Shown: one piece after another, positions 6,112 to 35,857 of the stretch | How the letters are laid out: each line of letters begins with the position of its first letter | Numbering within the stretch: position 1 is the stretch's first letter | From: an uncultured bacterium | GTDB lineage: Bacteria; Bacteroidota; Bacteroidia; Bacteroidales; Bacteroidaceae | DNA length: 38,901 bases | Assembly (NCBI GenBank): GCA_945869305.1 | Contig: CAMBOH010000009.1 | Span: forward strand, 1 to 38,901 | Direction of reading: 5' to 3' | Made by a program: the position numbers and the translations under genes | The notes under the pieces: generated by a model | Database searches by the model: none | What the model was told of the DNA's origin: nothing | Seen by the model: the letters and a program-made list of their open reading frames with translations, nothing else

Positions 6112-6278
6112 ATATTCATCCCAACTTCAGCTTCGCTCCCGAGCACTTCCCAGTTAGACTTCGAAGCACGGTTATGTTTAATAGCGAAGAGCGGAACGAG
6201 AGTCGCCTGTCCGGAAAGGCCTCGGGACGATGCCCTTCTCCTGCCTTCTGGACCTACCCGGTGGGCACCTGAAGTCAC

Positions 6279-6330
6279 GCCCCGAAGGGGCATCAGCGCA
6301 AAGTCCGCAACCTTGAACGCGCTTGTCAAC
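6279..6330 (-). repeat. Partial copy of the dispersed palindromic element (rho-dnaG gap)
   Basis: GCCCC-GAA-GGGGC at 6279-6291 forms a perfect 5-bp stem with a GAA triloop, identical to a hairpin at 35588-35600. Bases 6311-6326 (CCTTGAACGCGCTTGT) match, on the minus strand, the core ACAAGCGTTCAAGG of the 36-bp repeat at 35.4 kb, with two extra bases. The rest of the 390-bp rho-dnaG gap (6008-6397) holds the hairpin at 6030-6111, other GC-rich short stems and no convincing gene. A perfect 6-bp hairpin (CTTCGG/CCGAAG, 6369-6384) lies 13 nt before the dnaG start. Confidence 0.6.
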
Positions 6331-16620: not shown

Positions 16621-16811
16621 CATGGTACCAAGCGTTCGAGGTACGCTTAAAGATAGGGGCAATAAGCGCTTGTGCACTGGGAATGCGGGCAAGGGCTCAC
16701 GTTTATTATAAGCAAGCTTTTGCCTGGTCTCCCACTGCGCAAGCACTCAAAGCCCTGAAAGGGCAAAAGCGTAAGTAGAAGGGACTCATGCTTATGCACT
16801 TTCAGGGCGAA
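16621..16811 (+). repeat. Degenerate copy of the dispersed palindromic element
   Basis: The 413-bp asnS-mutS2 gap (16470-16882) holds no gene. Within it, AAGCGTTCGAGG (16630-16641) resembles the 36-bp repeat core at 35.4 kb. AGGGGCAATAAGC follows, then GCCCT-GAA-AGGGC with AAAAGCG at 16752-16771. The same modules appear in the same order at 35.5 kb. A second degenerate copy of the last module is inverted at 16787-16811 (minus strand CGCCCTGAAAGTGC), making a larger hairpin. Two further perfect stems lie nearer mutS2: GGGAGCC/GGCTCCC (16527-16566) and GCGAAC/GTTCGC (16583-16604). Confidence 0.65.
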
Positions 16812-16882
16812 CGTACAGCGCGGTAGCACTGGGAGGACAGGCAGAAGCCTGCGGTTGACTGTGTCGTGGGATGATGGCGGAT

Positions 16883-21140: not shown

Positions 21141-21484
21141 TTTGAAGTTTAAAGTTTGAGAGTTGAAAGTTGAAGGTATGAGAGTCTAAAGTTGAAAGTT
21201 GAAAGTTGAGAGTCTAAAGTTGAAAGTTGAGAGTTGAAAGTTGAGAGTTGAAAGTTGAGAGTTGAAAGTCTAAAGTTGAAAGTTGAAAGTCTAAAGTTGA
21301 AAGTCTAAAGTTGAAGGTTTGAAGTTTAGAGTTGAAGTTTATTGAGTCTGAGCGGACGAATCCGCCGAACAAGCTTCATGCTCAGAAAGTCCGAACGCTT
21401 AACTTCAAACTTCAACTTTAGACTTTCAACTCTCAACTCTCGACTTTCAACATTCAACTTTAGACTTTCAACTTTAGACTTTAG
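21141..21484. repeat. Heptanucleotide-based giant inverted repeat
   Basis: The left arm (21141-21340) is built mostly of 7-bp words GTTGAAA, GTTGAGA and GTCTAAA. The right arm (21401-21484) is built of their reverse complements (TTTCAAC, TCTCAAC, TTTAGAC). The 60-bp spacer holds nested hairpins: CTGAGC/GCTCAG (21348-21385) and GCGGA/TCCGC with a CGAA loop (21352-21365). The block fills the gap between the gltA stop codon and the purB promoter. A 7-bp period cannot keep a reading frame, and no gene is present. Confidence 0.9.
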
Positions 21485-26700: not shown

Positions 26701-26787
26701 AACGCTTTTTCCCTTTCAGAGCGAACTTGCGGCAGCCAACCGCCCCAGAGTGTTTCCCTGGGCTATGCGCTGGTTGCCCCTTCAACG
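26701..26787 (-). repeat. Near-complete inverted copy of the dispersed palindromic element
   Basis: Read on the minus strand the order is GAAGGGGCAAC, then AGCC, CAGGGAAACACTCTGGGG, then CTCTGAAAGGGAAAAAGCG. The same modules run in the same order at 35593-35671. A further fragment GAAAGGGCATAAGCATTT lies on the plus strand at 26659-26676. With the 23-bp array that begins at its end, it fills the 309-bp tsaC-metalloprotease gap (26641-26949), where no gene is visible. Confidence 0.7.
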
Positions 26788-26868
26788 AAGTATATCTTCT
26801 GTCGCGGATGAAGTATATCTTCTATGGCAGATGAAGTATATCTTCTATGGCAGATGAAGTATATCTTC
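26787..26868. repeat. 23-bp tandem repeat, four copies
   Basis: GAAGTATATCTTCT recurs at 26787, 26810, 26833 and 26856, exactly 23 bp apart, joined by ATGGCAGAT or a variant. Each copy contains the near-palindrome GAAG-TATAT-CTTC. The fourth copy diverges after CTTCTT. The array lies between the 3' end of the metalloprotease gene and the tsaC start. Confidence 0.9.
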
Positions 26869-26949
26869 TTGGAAAAGGATGCTGCCTGCTGCGTCAGCGG
26901 CGATGTGCTGCCGCGCGCTTTCAAGTCACATGCCGACAGCACCTCTCCG

Positions 26950-30036: not shown

Positions 30037-30156
30037 GGGGGATGTGAGATTTTCTGGGTTTATAGCTGGGGGTGAAGGTGTGGTTTGGCTCAGGGAGAGG
30101 CTTATGGTCCATCCTGTATAAGGCGTGGTCCTGGCCGTGTGCAGTTGTGCCGCTCC

Positions 30157-30180
30157 AGGGCGTGCCTTGAACGCTTGTCC
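30157..30180 (-). repeat. Solo fragment of the 36-bp repeat
   Basis: On the minus strand this reads GGACAAGCGTTCAAGGCACG followed by CCCT. It matches the core of the tandem 36-bp units at 35427-35606, including the GGACA that precedes each core. It lies in the gap between rlmD and the uncharacterised gene. Confidence 0.75.
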
Positions 30181-32843: not shown

Positions 32844-33008
32844 GTTAGGGTCGCTTTGCTCCCAGGTTATGCTCCCAGGTTATAAGGTTAGGGTCGCTTC
32901 GCTCCCTGGTTATAAGGTTAGGGTCGCTTCGCTCCCAGGTTATAAGGTTAGGGTCGCTTCGCTCCCAGGTTATGAGGTTAGGGTCGCTTCGCTCCCATGA
33001 GGTTATAA
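32844..33008. repeat. 30-bp tandem repeat upstream of mutY
   Basis: GTTAGGGTCGCTTCGCTCCC starts at 32844 (one T variant), 32887, 32917, 32947 and 32977. The last four are exactly 30 bp apart, joined by AGGTTATAAG. The first unit contains a partial internal duplication (GCTCCCAGGTTAT twice). The array ends 13 bp from the mutY start codon at its near edge, so it occupies the mutY leader or promoter region. It can be read as a 10-residue peptide repeat on the plus strand, but that frame has no gene features. Confidence 0.9.
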
Positions 33009-33142
33009 GGTTATAAAGTTACTGTCTAAAGGCAAGGTTGCTCAGTGAGTAACTTTATAACCTCATAACCTTATCCCTCATAACCTAAGTTACAGAGTAA
33101 CTTTATAACCTCATAACCTTATCCCTCATAACCTAAGTAAGT
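33009..33142. repeat. 48-bp duplication and inverted repeat downstream of manC
   Basis: GAGTAACTTTATAACCTCAT begins two copies of a 48-bp unit at 33047 and 33095. The sequence GGTTATAAAGTTACT at 33009-33023 is the reverse complement of part of each copy, so the block can fold back. It also shares the words GGTTATAAG/CATAACCTTAT with the adjacent 30-bp array. Together the two arrays fill the 315-bp mutY-manC gap. Confidence 0.85.
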
Positions 33143-34862: not shown

Positions 34863-35426
34863 ATGACACCACCCGAAAAAATCATCTTAGGCATTGACCC
34901 TGGCACCAATGTGCTGGGCTATGGTGTGCTCAAAGTGCAGGGCCGCAAGGCCAGCATGGAGGCGATGGGCGTGATTGACCTGCGCAAGTGTACCGATGTA
35001 TACCTGAAGCTGGGTCGTATCTACGAAAGGGTGATTGGCATTATCGATGCGTTCTGTCCCGATGAACTGGCCATCGAGTCGCCTTTCTTCGGCAAGAATG
35101 TACAGAGTATGCTCAAGCTGGGACGCGCACAGGGTGTGGCCATTGCCGCAGCCATATGCCGGGAAGTGCCCATTCATGAATATGCTCCACTCAAAATCAA
35201 GCAGGCCATAACAGGCAACGGACAGGCCAGTAAGGAACAGGTTTCGGCCATGCTCCAACGTCTGCTGCACATCCCTGCCGAAAGCGTGCTGCCCTATCTG
35301 GATGCCACCGATGCGCTGGCTGCTGCTTACTGTCACTACCTGCAGAGCGGAAGGCCGGCCGAAACCACGGGAGCACCCCACTCCTGGGCAGCCTTTGTCA
35401 AGCAACATGCCGACAGGGTTCACTGA
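34863..35426 (+). CDS. ruvC: Holliday junction resolvase RuvC
   Basis: RuvC cuts four-way junctions made during homologous recombination, acting with RuvAB. The 187-residue product has the normal length. The first catalytic aspartate is D12 in LGIDPGTN. The catalytic glutamate is in [11 protein letters not shown], and the C-terminal acidic pair is in [12 protein letters not shown]. The ATG at 34863 starts just before the conserved strand; longer in-frame starts add 43 residues that are not RuvC-like. It diverges from the DUF1573 gene and is followed directly by a 36-bp tandem array one base after its stop codon. ruvA and ruvB are not in this window. Confidence 0.96.
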
Positions 35427-35606
35427 ACAAGCGTTCAAGGCCCGCCGCGCCCTAAAAAGACCACAAGCGTTCAAGGCCCGTCGCGCCCTAAAAGGACAAC
35501 AAGCGTTCAAGGCCCGCCCCGCCCTAAAAGGACAACAAACGTTCAAGGCACGCCCCGCCCTAAAAAGACAACAAAGGTTCAAGGCACGCCCCGAAGGGGC
35601 AACAAG
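35427..35606 (+). repeat. 36-bp tandem repeat, five units, directly after ruvC
   Basis: Units start at 35427, 35463, 35499, 35535 and 35571, exactly 36 bp apart with no spacers. Each begins ACAAGCGTTCAAGGC or a one- to two-base variant. The middle reads CCGCCCTAAAA. In the fifth unit the centre changes to GCCCC-GAA-GGGGC, a perfect hairpin (35588-35600). The array starts immediately after the ruvC stop codon. The 36-bp period keeps frame, but no start or protein-like sequence supports translation. Confidence 0.93.
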
Positions 35607-35676
35607 CACTTAGCCCAGGGCAACGCCCTGGGTGGAATGAGGCGATAAAGTGCGCCCTGAAAGGGCAAAAGCATTT
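35588..35676 (+). repeat. Dispersed palindromic element, best-preserved copy (three triloop hairpins)
   Basis: Three perfect hairpins run in series. GCCCC-GAA-GGGGC is at 35588-35600. CCCAGGGC-AAC-GCCCTGGG is at 35614-35632. GCCCT-GAA-AGGGC is at 35654-35666, followed by AAAAGC. Copies or parts occur at 6279-6330, 16621-16811, 26701-26787 (inverted) and 30157-30180. The remaining bases to 35857 hold no gene that I can support. Confidence 0.85.
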
Positions 35677-35857
35677 GTTCTTAACGCTTTTTGCGCATCA
35701 GATTCGCTGCGCTCGGCATAGCTCAAGCAAGCCCGGCTCTGCGCTCAATGGTGCAGCTTGGCTCTGCGCATTCAAGCACCCCGACCCAGTCAACCTGCCG
35801 CTGACTGCGAACCTGTAGGTTTTCCCAATTTCCATAGACCCCACAAGCCCAACCGTT

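Follow-up and report, generated by a model that had tools for sequence, protein, structure and literature searches.

Among the closest described counterparts of the element studied here are the repetitive extragenic palindromes (REPs) with their REP-associated tyrosine transposases (RAYTs), and subclass 1.2 of the TnpA_Y1 transposases. A REP unit measures 21–65 nt according to the available text of PMC6006769 and 20–40 bp according to that of PMC3733652. Subclass 1.2 is described in the former (Quentin et al. 2018) as proteins of ~148 aa with a Y---Q--HH signature and a WQ motif, found in Bacteroidetes and Cyanobacteria, and is marked there as 'no' for REP. Here, we analysed a stretch of 38,901 nucleotides from an uncultured bacterium of the Bacteroidaceae (GenBank assembly GCA_945869305.1, contig CAMBOH010000009.1, positions 1 to 38,901), referred to below as the window. 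The draft genome to which it belongs, as contig 9, comprises 126 contigs with 2,013,878 bases in total and is 75.84% complete. Between positions 35427 and 35676 the window carries an element of tandem modules and hairpins, which is very probably the repeat unit of a REPIN-like (REP doublet forming hairpins), non-autonomous mobile family of TnpA_Y1 subclass 1.2. A HuH/Y1 transposase of that subclass (~150 aa) would move the family; cleavage by this enzyme and present activity are presumed.

The three-hairpin unit and its mirror-image pairs

The element is composed of the following parts, with H1 to H3 denoting its hairpins:

35427–35571, + strand: 36-bp tandem array, the first module of the unit (outer end and decayed first hairpin)
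35572–35675, + strand: best copy in the window, a full three-hairpin unit (profile positions 2–105, E = 2.8e-29)
35588–35600, + strand: hairpin H1 with GAA loop, GCCCC-GAA-GGGGC, read from the sequence; the helix has two-sided changes over 62 distinct copies
35611–35613, + strand: TAG foot, immediately 5' of H2, read from the sequence
35614–35632, + strand: hairpin H2 with AAC loop, CCCAGGGC-AAC-GCCCTGGG, read from the sequence
35654–35666, + strand: hairpin H3 with GAA loop, GCCCT-GAA-AGGGC, read from the sequence; its 3' arm continues into GGGCAAAAGC
35683–35697, − strand: remnant of a mirror-image partner unit (AACGCTTTTTGC...), read by eye and compared with intact pairs

The 36-bp array and the three perfect triloop hairpins (GAA, AAC and GAA) had been noted in a preliminary description of this DNA and are present as described there. 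Tandem Repeats Finder places the array at 35426–35593 with 92% matches, and the profile of the family matches inside it at model positions 2–41, 2–40, 3–23 and 1–20: the array consists of tandem repeats of the first third of the unit itself. Similar modules in tandem adjoin other copies in the same genome. Folding of 35560–35700 as single-stranded DNA gave a modest signal (z = −2.04), and 3 of 200 shuffled sequences folded equally well.

The element has many relatives in its own genome. A blastn search at E ≤ 10 returned 106 matches, 13 of which had E > 0.1 (scores were computed for 40 of the 143 first-look candidates). The profile, applied at E ≤ 1e-3 to 35 fragments totalling 160,269 bases, all of which except the window had been picked for containing matches, returned 93 matches, including 65 near-full units of ~105 nt (at least 90 of 105 positions). 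With the excess judged by E-values, these counts bear out the earlier view that the hairpins form a real family rather than chance palindromes. Placement is intergenic, with 1 of the 93 matches inside a mechanically called open reading frame (ORF) of at least 200 aa. Of the 252 contig ends, 18 have a unit no more than 300 bp away, so the assembly is probably broken by the repeats. Sequence like TTTCGCAAGTGTTCACTTGTAGCTG also recurs outside several units (contigs C30, C87, C102, C24, C7 and others), and there is therefore a further repeated module beyond the modelled unit.

From its outer end, the unit runs through H1 (stem of 5 bp), a linker, mostly 11–13 nt long, with a TAG-like foot at its end (mostly ATAG, in some copies TTAG or GTAG), H2 (7–8-bp GC stem), a linker of mostly 21–25 nt and H3 (5-bp stem) to GGGCAAAAGC. 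For the analysis of covariation, 63 units were aligned whose extension to the model ends stayed inside their locus, yielding 62 distinct copies. When the three stems were imposed on these copies, 99.1% of cells paired (shuffled mean 93.3), 59 cells carried two-sided changes (22.3 when shuffled) and the covariation score was 0.165 (0.074 when shuffled); none of the three values was equalled by 500 shuffles. The covariation is located in H1, where two base pairs show 23 C-G to G-C flips each, which may represent few events inherited together.

Units are frequently arranged as mirror images. The profile matches form 26 tail-to-tail pairs, in which the centre is exactly 21 bp in 20 cases and 20–23 bp in 23; the remaining three pairs have centres of 42, 63 and 109 bp. 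Eighteen of the 65 near-full units are unpaired, six of them with a tail less than 100 bp from a contig end. Among 20 pairs examined for the type of their H2–H3 linker (two unscored), 17 of the 18 scored pairs combine type a with type b (p = 2.9e-5 against random pairing). Because the two types are combined in this way, the mirror pair looks like one element with unlike ends, a left and a right one.

Inspection of empty sites in close relatives had been suggested earlier, and at both gene junctions compared, the unit carried by the own genome is absent from relatives. The gap from ruvC to the next conserved ORF downstream is 431 bp in the own genome. Of 41 genomes, 35 yielded this gene; 30 loci were compared and 15, the own included, were syntenic. 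In 13 of the other 14, this gap does not exceed 69 bp; in the remaining one (G033; here and below, G, C and L number genomes, contigs and loci) it measures 296 bp and lacks such hairpins. The second junction, between a gyrase-B/Toprim gene and a cytidylyltransferase-like gene, holds a pair in a gap of 457 bp. Searches for the cytidylyltransferase-like gene detected it in 40 of the 41 genomes; among 30 loci the upstream end was syntenic in 24 of the 29 others and not reached in five. In all 24 the gap is 0–174 bp without the unit (L244 has a single unrelated hairpin). Both junctions are best read as insertions in the own lineage, loss in all others being less likely.

Transposase genes between units in related genomes

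Matches to the Y1 transposase domain (PF01797, Y1_Tnp) occur in 38 of 61 genomes of the set of relatives. Within the genus, 25 of 32 PF01797 matches were examined, the other seven being weak, partial or within long reading frames. Inverted repeats were present in the 600-bp flanks of 22 of these 25 tnpA genes at E ≤ 1e-3 (21 at 1e-6), compared with none of 100 segments drawn at random from these loci and none of 24 genes of the window; 9 of 78 other ORFs from the transposase loci were positive, some of them neighbouring the same repeats. In four genomes, the gene is flanked by the window family's own unit type (G035, L063; G018, L057; G030, L059; G008, L056). The order at these loci is H1, H2, H3, GGGCAAAAGC, gene, GCTTTTGCCC and the mirror image, with extra sequence interrupting one side in L057, and the window unit matches three such flanks directly (G035:C27, E = 4.5e-14; G018:C273, 1.3e-7; G008:C10, 3.4e-8). 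The gene occupies the position of the ~21-bp centre of the gene-less pairs, and in several loci further repeat units are stacked next to it.

Flanked genes extend beyond the genus. When the protein alignment was used to search named genomes, at least 588 relatives were obtained, and the 80 best loci were retained; judging from the record titles, none of these 80 is cyanobacterial. Inverted flanks were detected at 56 of these 80 tnpA genes and at none of 236 random segments (none of 336 for genus and named genomes together); according to the record titles, the flanked loci belong to Bacteroidota, Acidobacteriota (Terriglobus), Verrucomicrobiota and Planctomycetota. The strict short-long-short hairpin order corresponding to H1-H2-H3 was parsed in 62 of 208 flanks at 42 of 105 loci, on both sides in 20, and in 0 of 225 controls, and a looser count of two or more hairpins gave 150 of 208 flanks versus 23 of 416 random ones. 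In the 62 transposase-flanking units, H2 is preceded by a foot of A or G (0.66/0.29) and then G (0.82), with T, A or C before it. Flanks also resemble each other within a locus: for 47 of 105 upstream flanks, the best match among all loci is the own downstream flank. In keeping with a match between transposases and their own repeats, the similarity of transposases is correlated with that of their flanks (Spearman 0.41, p 0.001, 999 permutations, n = 105; in the genus alone 0.41, p 0.001, n = 25). When 11 joined flank units were compared with their seven source genomes, each genome matched its own unit or units only among the matches listed (of 627), which include the source flanks and hold none for the G010:C22 unit.

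The encoded proteins were then placed by their motifs. Y---Q--HH is present in 102 of 105 proteins and the HuH motif in 103 of 105. Two of the three without the Y signature differ at one histidine (L137 and L187), and in the third, L064 (G036:C18), the transposase frame leaves the family after the W motif, past which it diverges. Among the 25 genus genes, 24 carry Y---Q--HH and no class-2 gene was seen; a second genus clade has WG or similar in place of WQ and is also flanked by repeats. Judged by the published description, the proteins thus bear the signature of TnpA_Y1 subclass 1.2 (HuH and Y---Q--HH motifs, ~148 aa, C-terminal tail). Subclass 2.6, our first guess for the enzyme, was dropped on seeing this motif. 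The closest solved structures in a profile comparison were 2xm3 (E = 4e-18), which we take to be the ISDra2-type transposase, and 2a6m, the ISHp608 transposase (E = 7e-14). A structure of the Escherichia coli TnpA_REP exists; it is not named among the eight structure matches of the transposase profile. The NCBI REP-transposase model matched three of five proteins at 20–26 bits against a cut-off of 80, while the NCBI IS200 model NF033573 matched all five, two of them above its cut-off. The published absence of REP-like repeats in subclass 1.2 does not hold here, as most examined genes are flanked, and our literature search, which most subscription journals lay beyond, found no repeat family tied to this subclass.

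These results refine the preliminary description, which had likened the element to REP/MITE-like families (MITE, miniature inverted-repeat transposable element), had placed a mobilising REP-associated tyrosine transposase elsewhere and had proposed a search for its gene. Y1 genes between inverted three-hairpin units do exist in relatives; the enzyme bears the signature of the IS200-like subclass 1.2 and is not a classical class-2 RAYT, and the own genome yielded no such gene, as detailed below.

By analogy with IS200/IS605 and TnpA_REP, the unit would fold when its DNA is single-stranded, the transposase would bind the hairpins, and the foot would help to position the cut. The tyrosine would then nick and rejoin the strand, so that a pair could be excised or copied and inserted between genes. 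The mobile form would be two units tail to tail round the ~21-bp centre, whose place is taken by the transposase gene in relatives.

Two observations concern the distribution of the family among relatives. G021 (L041) and G026 (L038) have 18 and 20 matches, and among those listed most cover query positions 7–53, one hairpin module alone. L099 (G032:C207:20543-20766) is a family pair that shares ~90% identity with a copy of the own genome. The only transposase detected in G032 has another repeat type, and the pair could be either a horizontal arrival or a relic.

Other copies in the window

The window was scanned with the profile built from the own genome's copies, which gave the following matches in addition to the element at 35427–35676:

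26701–26785, − strand: single inverted unit, strong (model positions 21–105, E = 2.4e-17)
30109–30178, − strand: degenerate unit (model positions 1–70, E = 2.6e-4)
16629–16819, strand not assigned: decayed mirror-image pair in three scraps (E = 0.007–0.023), namely an outer end at 16629–16671 (+), an H3 end at 16752–16772 (+) and a facing H3 end at 16788–16819 (−)
6272–6306, + strand: possible lone H1 module, borderline (E = 0.022)

The preliminary description had counted five loci in the window. All five have matches, of very unequal quality, as the E-values run from 2.8e-29 to 0.023: two copies are good, two degenerate and one doubtful. Its inverted copy at 26701–26787 is a strong match, whereas the copy placed at 16621–16811 is a mirror pair decayed to three scraps, two of which face each other by their H3 ends. 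The supposed fragment at 30157–30180 is part of a longer, inverted unit, and that at 6279–6330 is reduced to a borderline match to one hairpin module. A 23-bp tandem array at 26787–26869 (3.6 copies, 95% matches) adjoins the outer end of the inverted unit, whose first 20 positions are absent there. Elsewhere in the window, positions 21145–21484 hold two facing arrays of 7-bp units (AAGTTGA and its complement) with arms of up to 93 nt and 78% complementarity, and positions 32857–33138 hold a 30-bp array (~4.7 copies) and an exact duplication with a 48-bp period, in a partly inverted relation, adjoined by a nucleotidyltransferase gene.

Competing explanations and comparison with known systems

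Several observations weigh against a mobile family driven by subclass 1.2. Neither PF01797 nor the transposase profile found a gene in the own genome at its 75.84% completeness, which also agrees with the earlier statement that the window contains no transposase. The transposase profile likewise found none in G003, G013, G014, G021 and G026, all with element matches and three of them 87–89% complete; of the eight genomes searched, it matched only G030 and G032, the latter with flanks of a different repeat type. The gene may be absent because assemblies are incomplete or because it was lost once the family had spread, and REPtron loss is mentioned for E. coli in the available text of PMC3733652. 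PF01797 matches occur in 11 of 19 genus genomes with the element and in 8 of 18 without it (own included), so the element type does not predict the presence of any Y1 gene. Inverted flanks were not detected at 3 of the 25 genus genes (L062, L066 and L097) and 24 of the 80 named-genome genes, and the strict three-hairpin parse fails at 63 of 105 loci. The correlation between transposase and flank similarity given above is uncorrected for shared host descent. Amplification is not general, since Bacteroides xylanisolvens XB1A (L163) has a flanked gene and, fragments apart, just three full-length unit matches, of which two lie at that gene. In the 62 aligned copies, the number of base pairs with two-sided change (4 versus 3.4 shuffled) and of further pair types (9 versus 9.3) shows no excess, and H2 and most of H3 are nearly invariant and therefore of little informative value alone. 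Finally, comparison of the outer flanks revealed no target-site rule and no element boundary, because many outer flanks are themselves further repeat modules.

The hairpins might instead be kept for a role in RNA or the chromosome, as mRNA 3'-end stabilisers, attenuators or sites for gyrase or nucleoid proteins, with mobility past and incidental. The intergenic placement, the stem-preserving changes in H1 and the lack of a transposase in the own genome would fit such a role, and structures acting in mRNA 3' ends had been suggested in the preliminary description. That suggestion gained no positive support. In the 23 of 44 clusters with genes called on both sides, the gaps are codirectional in 13, divergent in six and convergent in four, compared with 21, four and four for gaps without clusters. 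Convergent gaps are thus not enriched, although these counts are weak evidence either way because the mechanical ORF calls err (the cluster behind ruvC was called divergent). By eye, no T run follows H3, and an Rfam scan of the window, L075, L077 and L090 placed no family at threshold on the element, its two matches being a signal recognition particle RNA and a tRNA, both in L075 and away from the element. As the unit is also absent from the same gene junctions in relatives and tied to a transposase gene, we consider a retained RNA or chromosomal role very improbable.

Two further explanations retain mobility with a different enzyme. MITE-type elements, derived by deletion from a standard insertion sequence (DDE or plain IS200) and ending in ordinary terminal repeats, would explain why the pairs resemble an element minus its gene, and the transposases are IS200-like in both their NF033573 matches and their similarity to the ISDra2 and ISHp608 structures. 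Yet the gene is rare (0–5 Pfam matches per genus genome) where the repeats are many, each end consists of three hairpins, and extra units are stacked by the gene in several loci, which leaves this origin with a similarly small probability. Slightly less probable still is that the units are classical REPs, served by a class-2 RAYT with a gene absent from the draft, and that look-alike repeats produce the link to subclass 1.2. Subclass 2.6 is mostly found in Bacteroidetes and has atypical flanking structures according to the available text of Quentin et al. (PMC6006769), and the incomplete genome with contig ends close to units could hide a gene. Against this, the four genus loci with the window family's own units enclose a gene with the subclass 1.2 motif, and the same motif is carried by all except one of the examined genus Y1 genes.

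The family with a subclass 1.2 transposase can be set beside several described systems. The BrickBuilt MITE of Porphyromonas gingivalis (PMC4596501) is also a Bacteroidales repeat with internal tandem arrays, but its terminal repeats are IS5-family-like and the description available to us includes no three-hairpin unit; identity was set aside on this published description. TIRtrons with their TIRYT transposases (Di Nocera et al. 2013, PMC3733652), as far as the available text describes them, likewise have a Y1 gene between long inverted repeats and can form families. However, their transposases fall in subclasses 2.1, 2.2 and 2.5 (available text of PMC6006769), membership that the Y---Q--HH motif excludes here, and this identity was also set aside. 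IS200/IS605 elements (subclass 1.1; IS608, ISDra2) share hairpin ends and have the closest solved transposase structures by sequence, but here there are few gene copies per genome, three-hairpin ends and many gene-less copies. Subclass 1.2 itself, in the available text of PMC6006769, agrees in its DH[VI]H, WQ and YIKNQKEHH-type motifs, ~150 aa, C-terminal tail and occurrence in Bacteroidetes; it differs in that multi-hairpin inverted repeats flank most genes examined here.

We lean towards regarding subclass 1.2 as a second, independently derived REP-transposase system, in which a class 1 IS200-type enzyme acts on a conserved three-hairpin substrate. It would be used across Bacteroidota, Planctomycetota, Verrucomicrobiota and Acidobacteriota, each enzyme having its own coevolving repeat family spread as asymmetric mirror pairs. 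If so, an orphan transposase subclass gains a likely substrate, the IS200 branch joins the RAYT branch as a source of REP-like amplification, and intergenic repeats of this kind, observed here in rumen and environmental bacteria belonging to several phyla, are accounted for. The likeness to REPs, bacterial interspersed mosaic elements (BIMEs) and REPINs with their RAYT (TnpA_REP; subclasses 2.2, 2.4, 2.5, 2.7 and 2.8) lies in the many dispersed intergenic hairpins, the regularly spaced inverted doublets and a HuH/Y1 gene flanked by cognate repeats (here in relatives), with one repeat family per gene. A REP, however, is one short hairpin, whereas the window unit has ~105 nt and three hairpins; the foot is GT[AG]G in REPs and TAG-like, at the middle hairpin, here; and RAYTs have the class 2 motif Y---NP instead of the class 1 motif Y---Q--HH. 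As the foot tetranucleotide, unit size and enzyme class do not fit, the window unit falls outside the published definition of a REP. We file it as a three-hairpin, subclass 1.2 REP-like system, which behaves most like a REPIN moved by a Y1 transposase.
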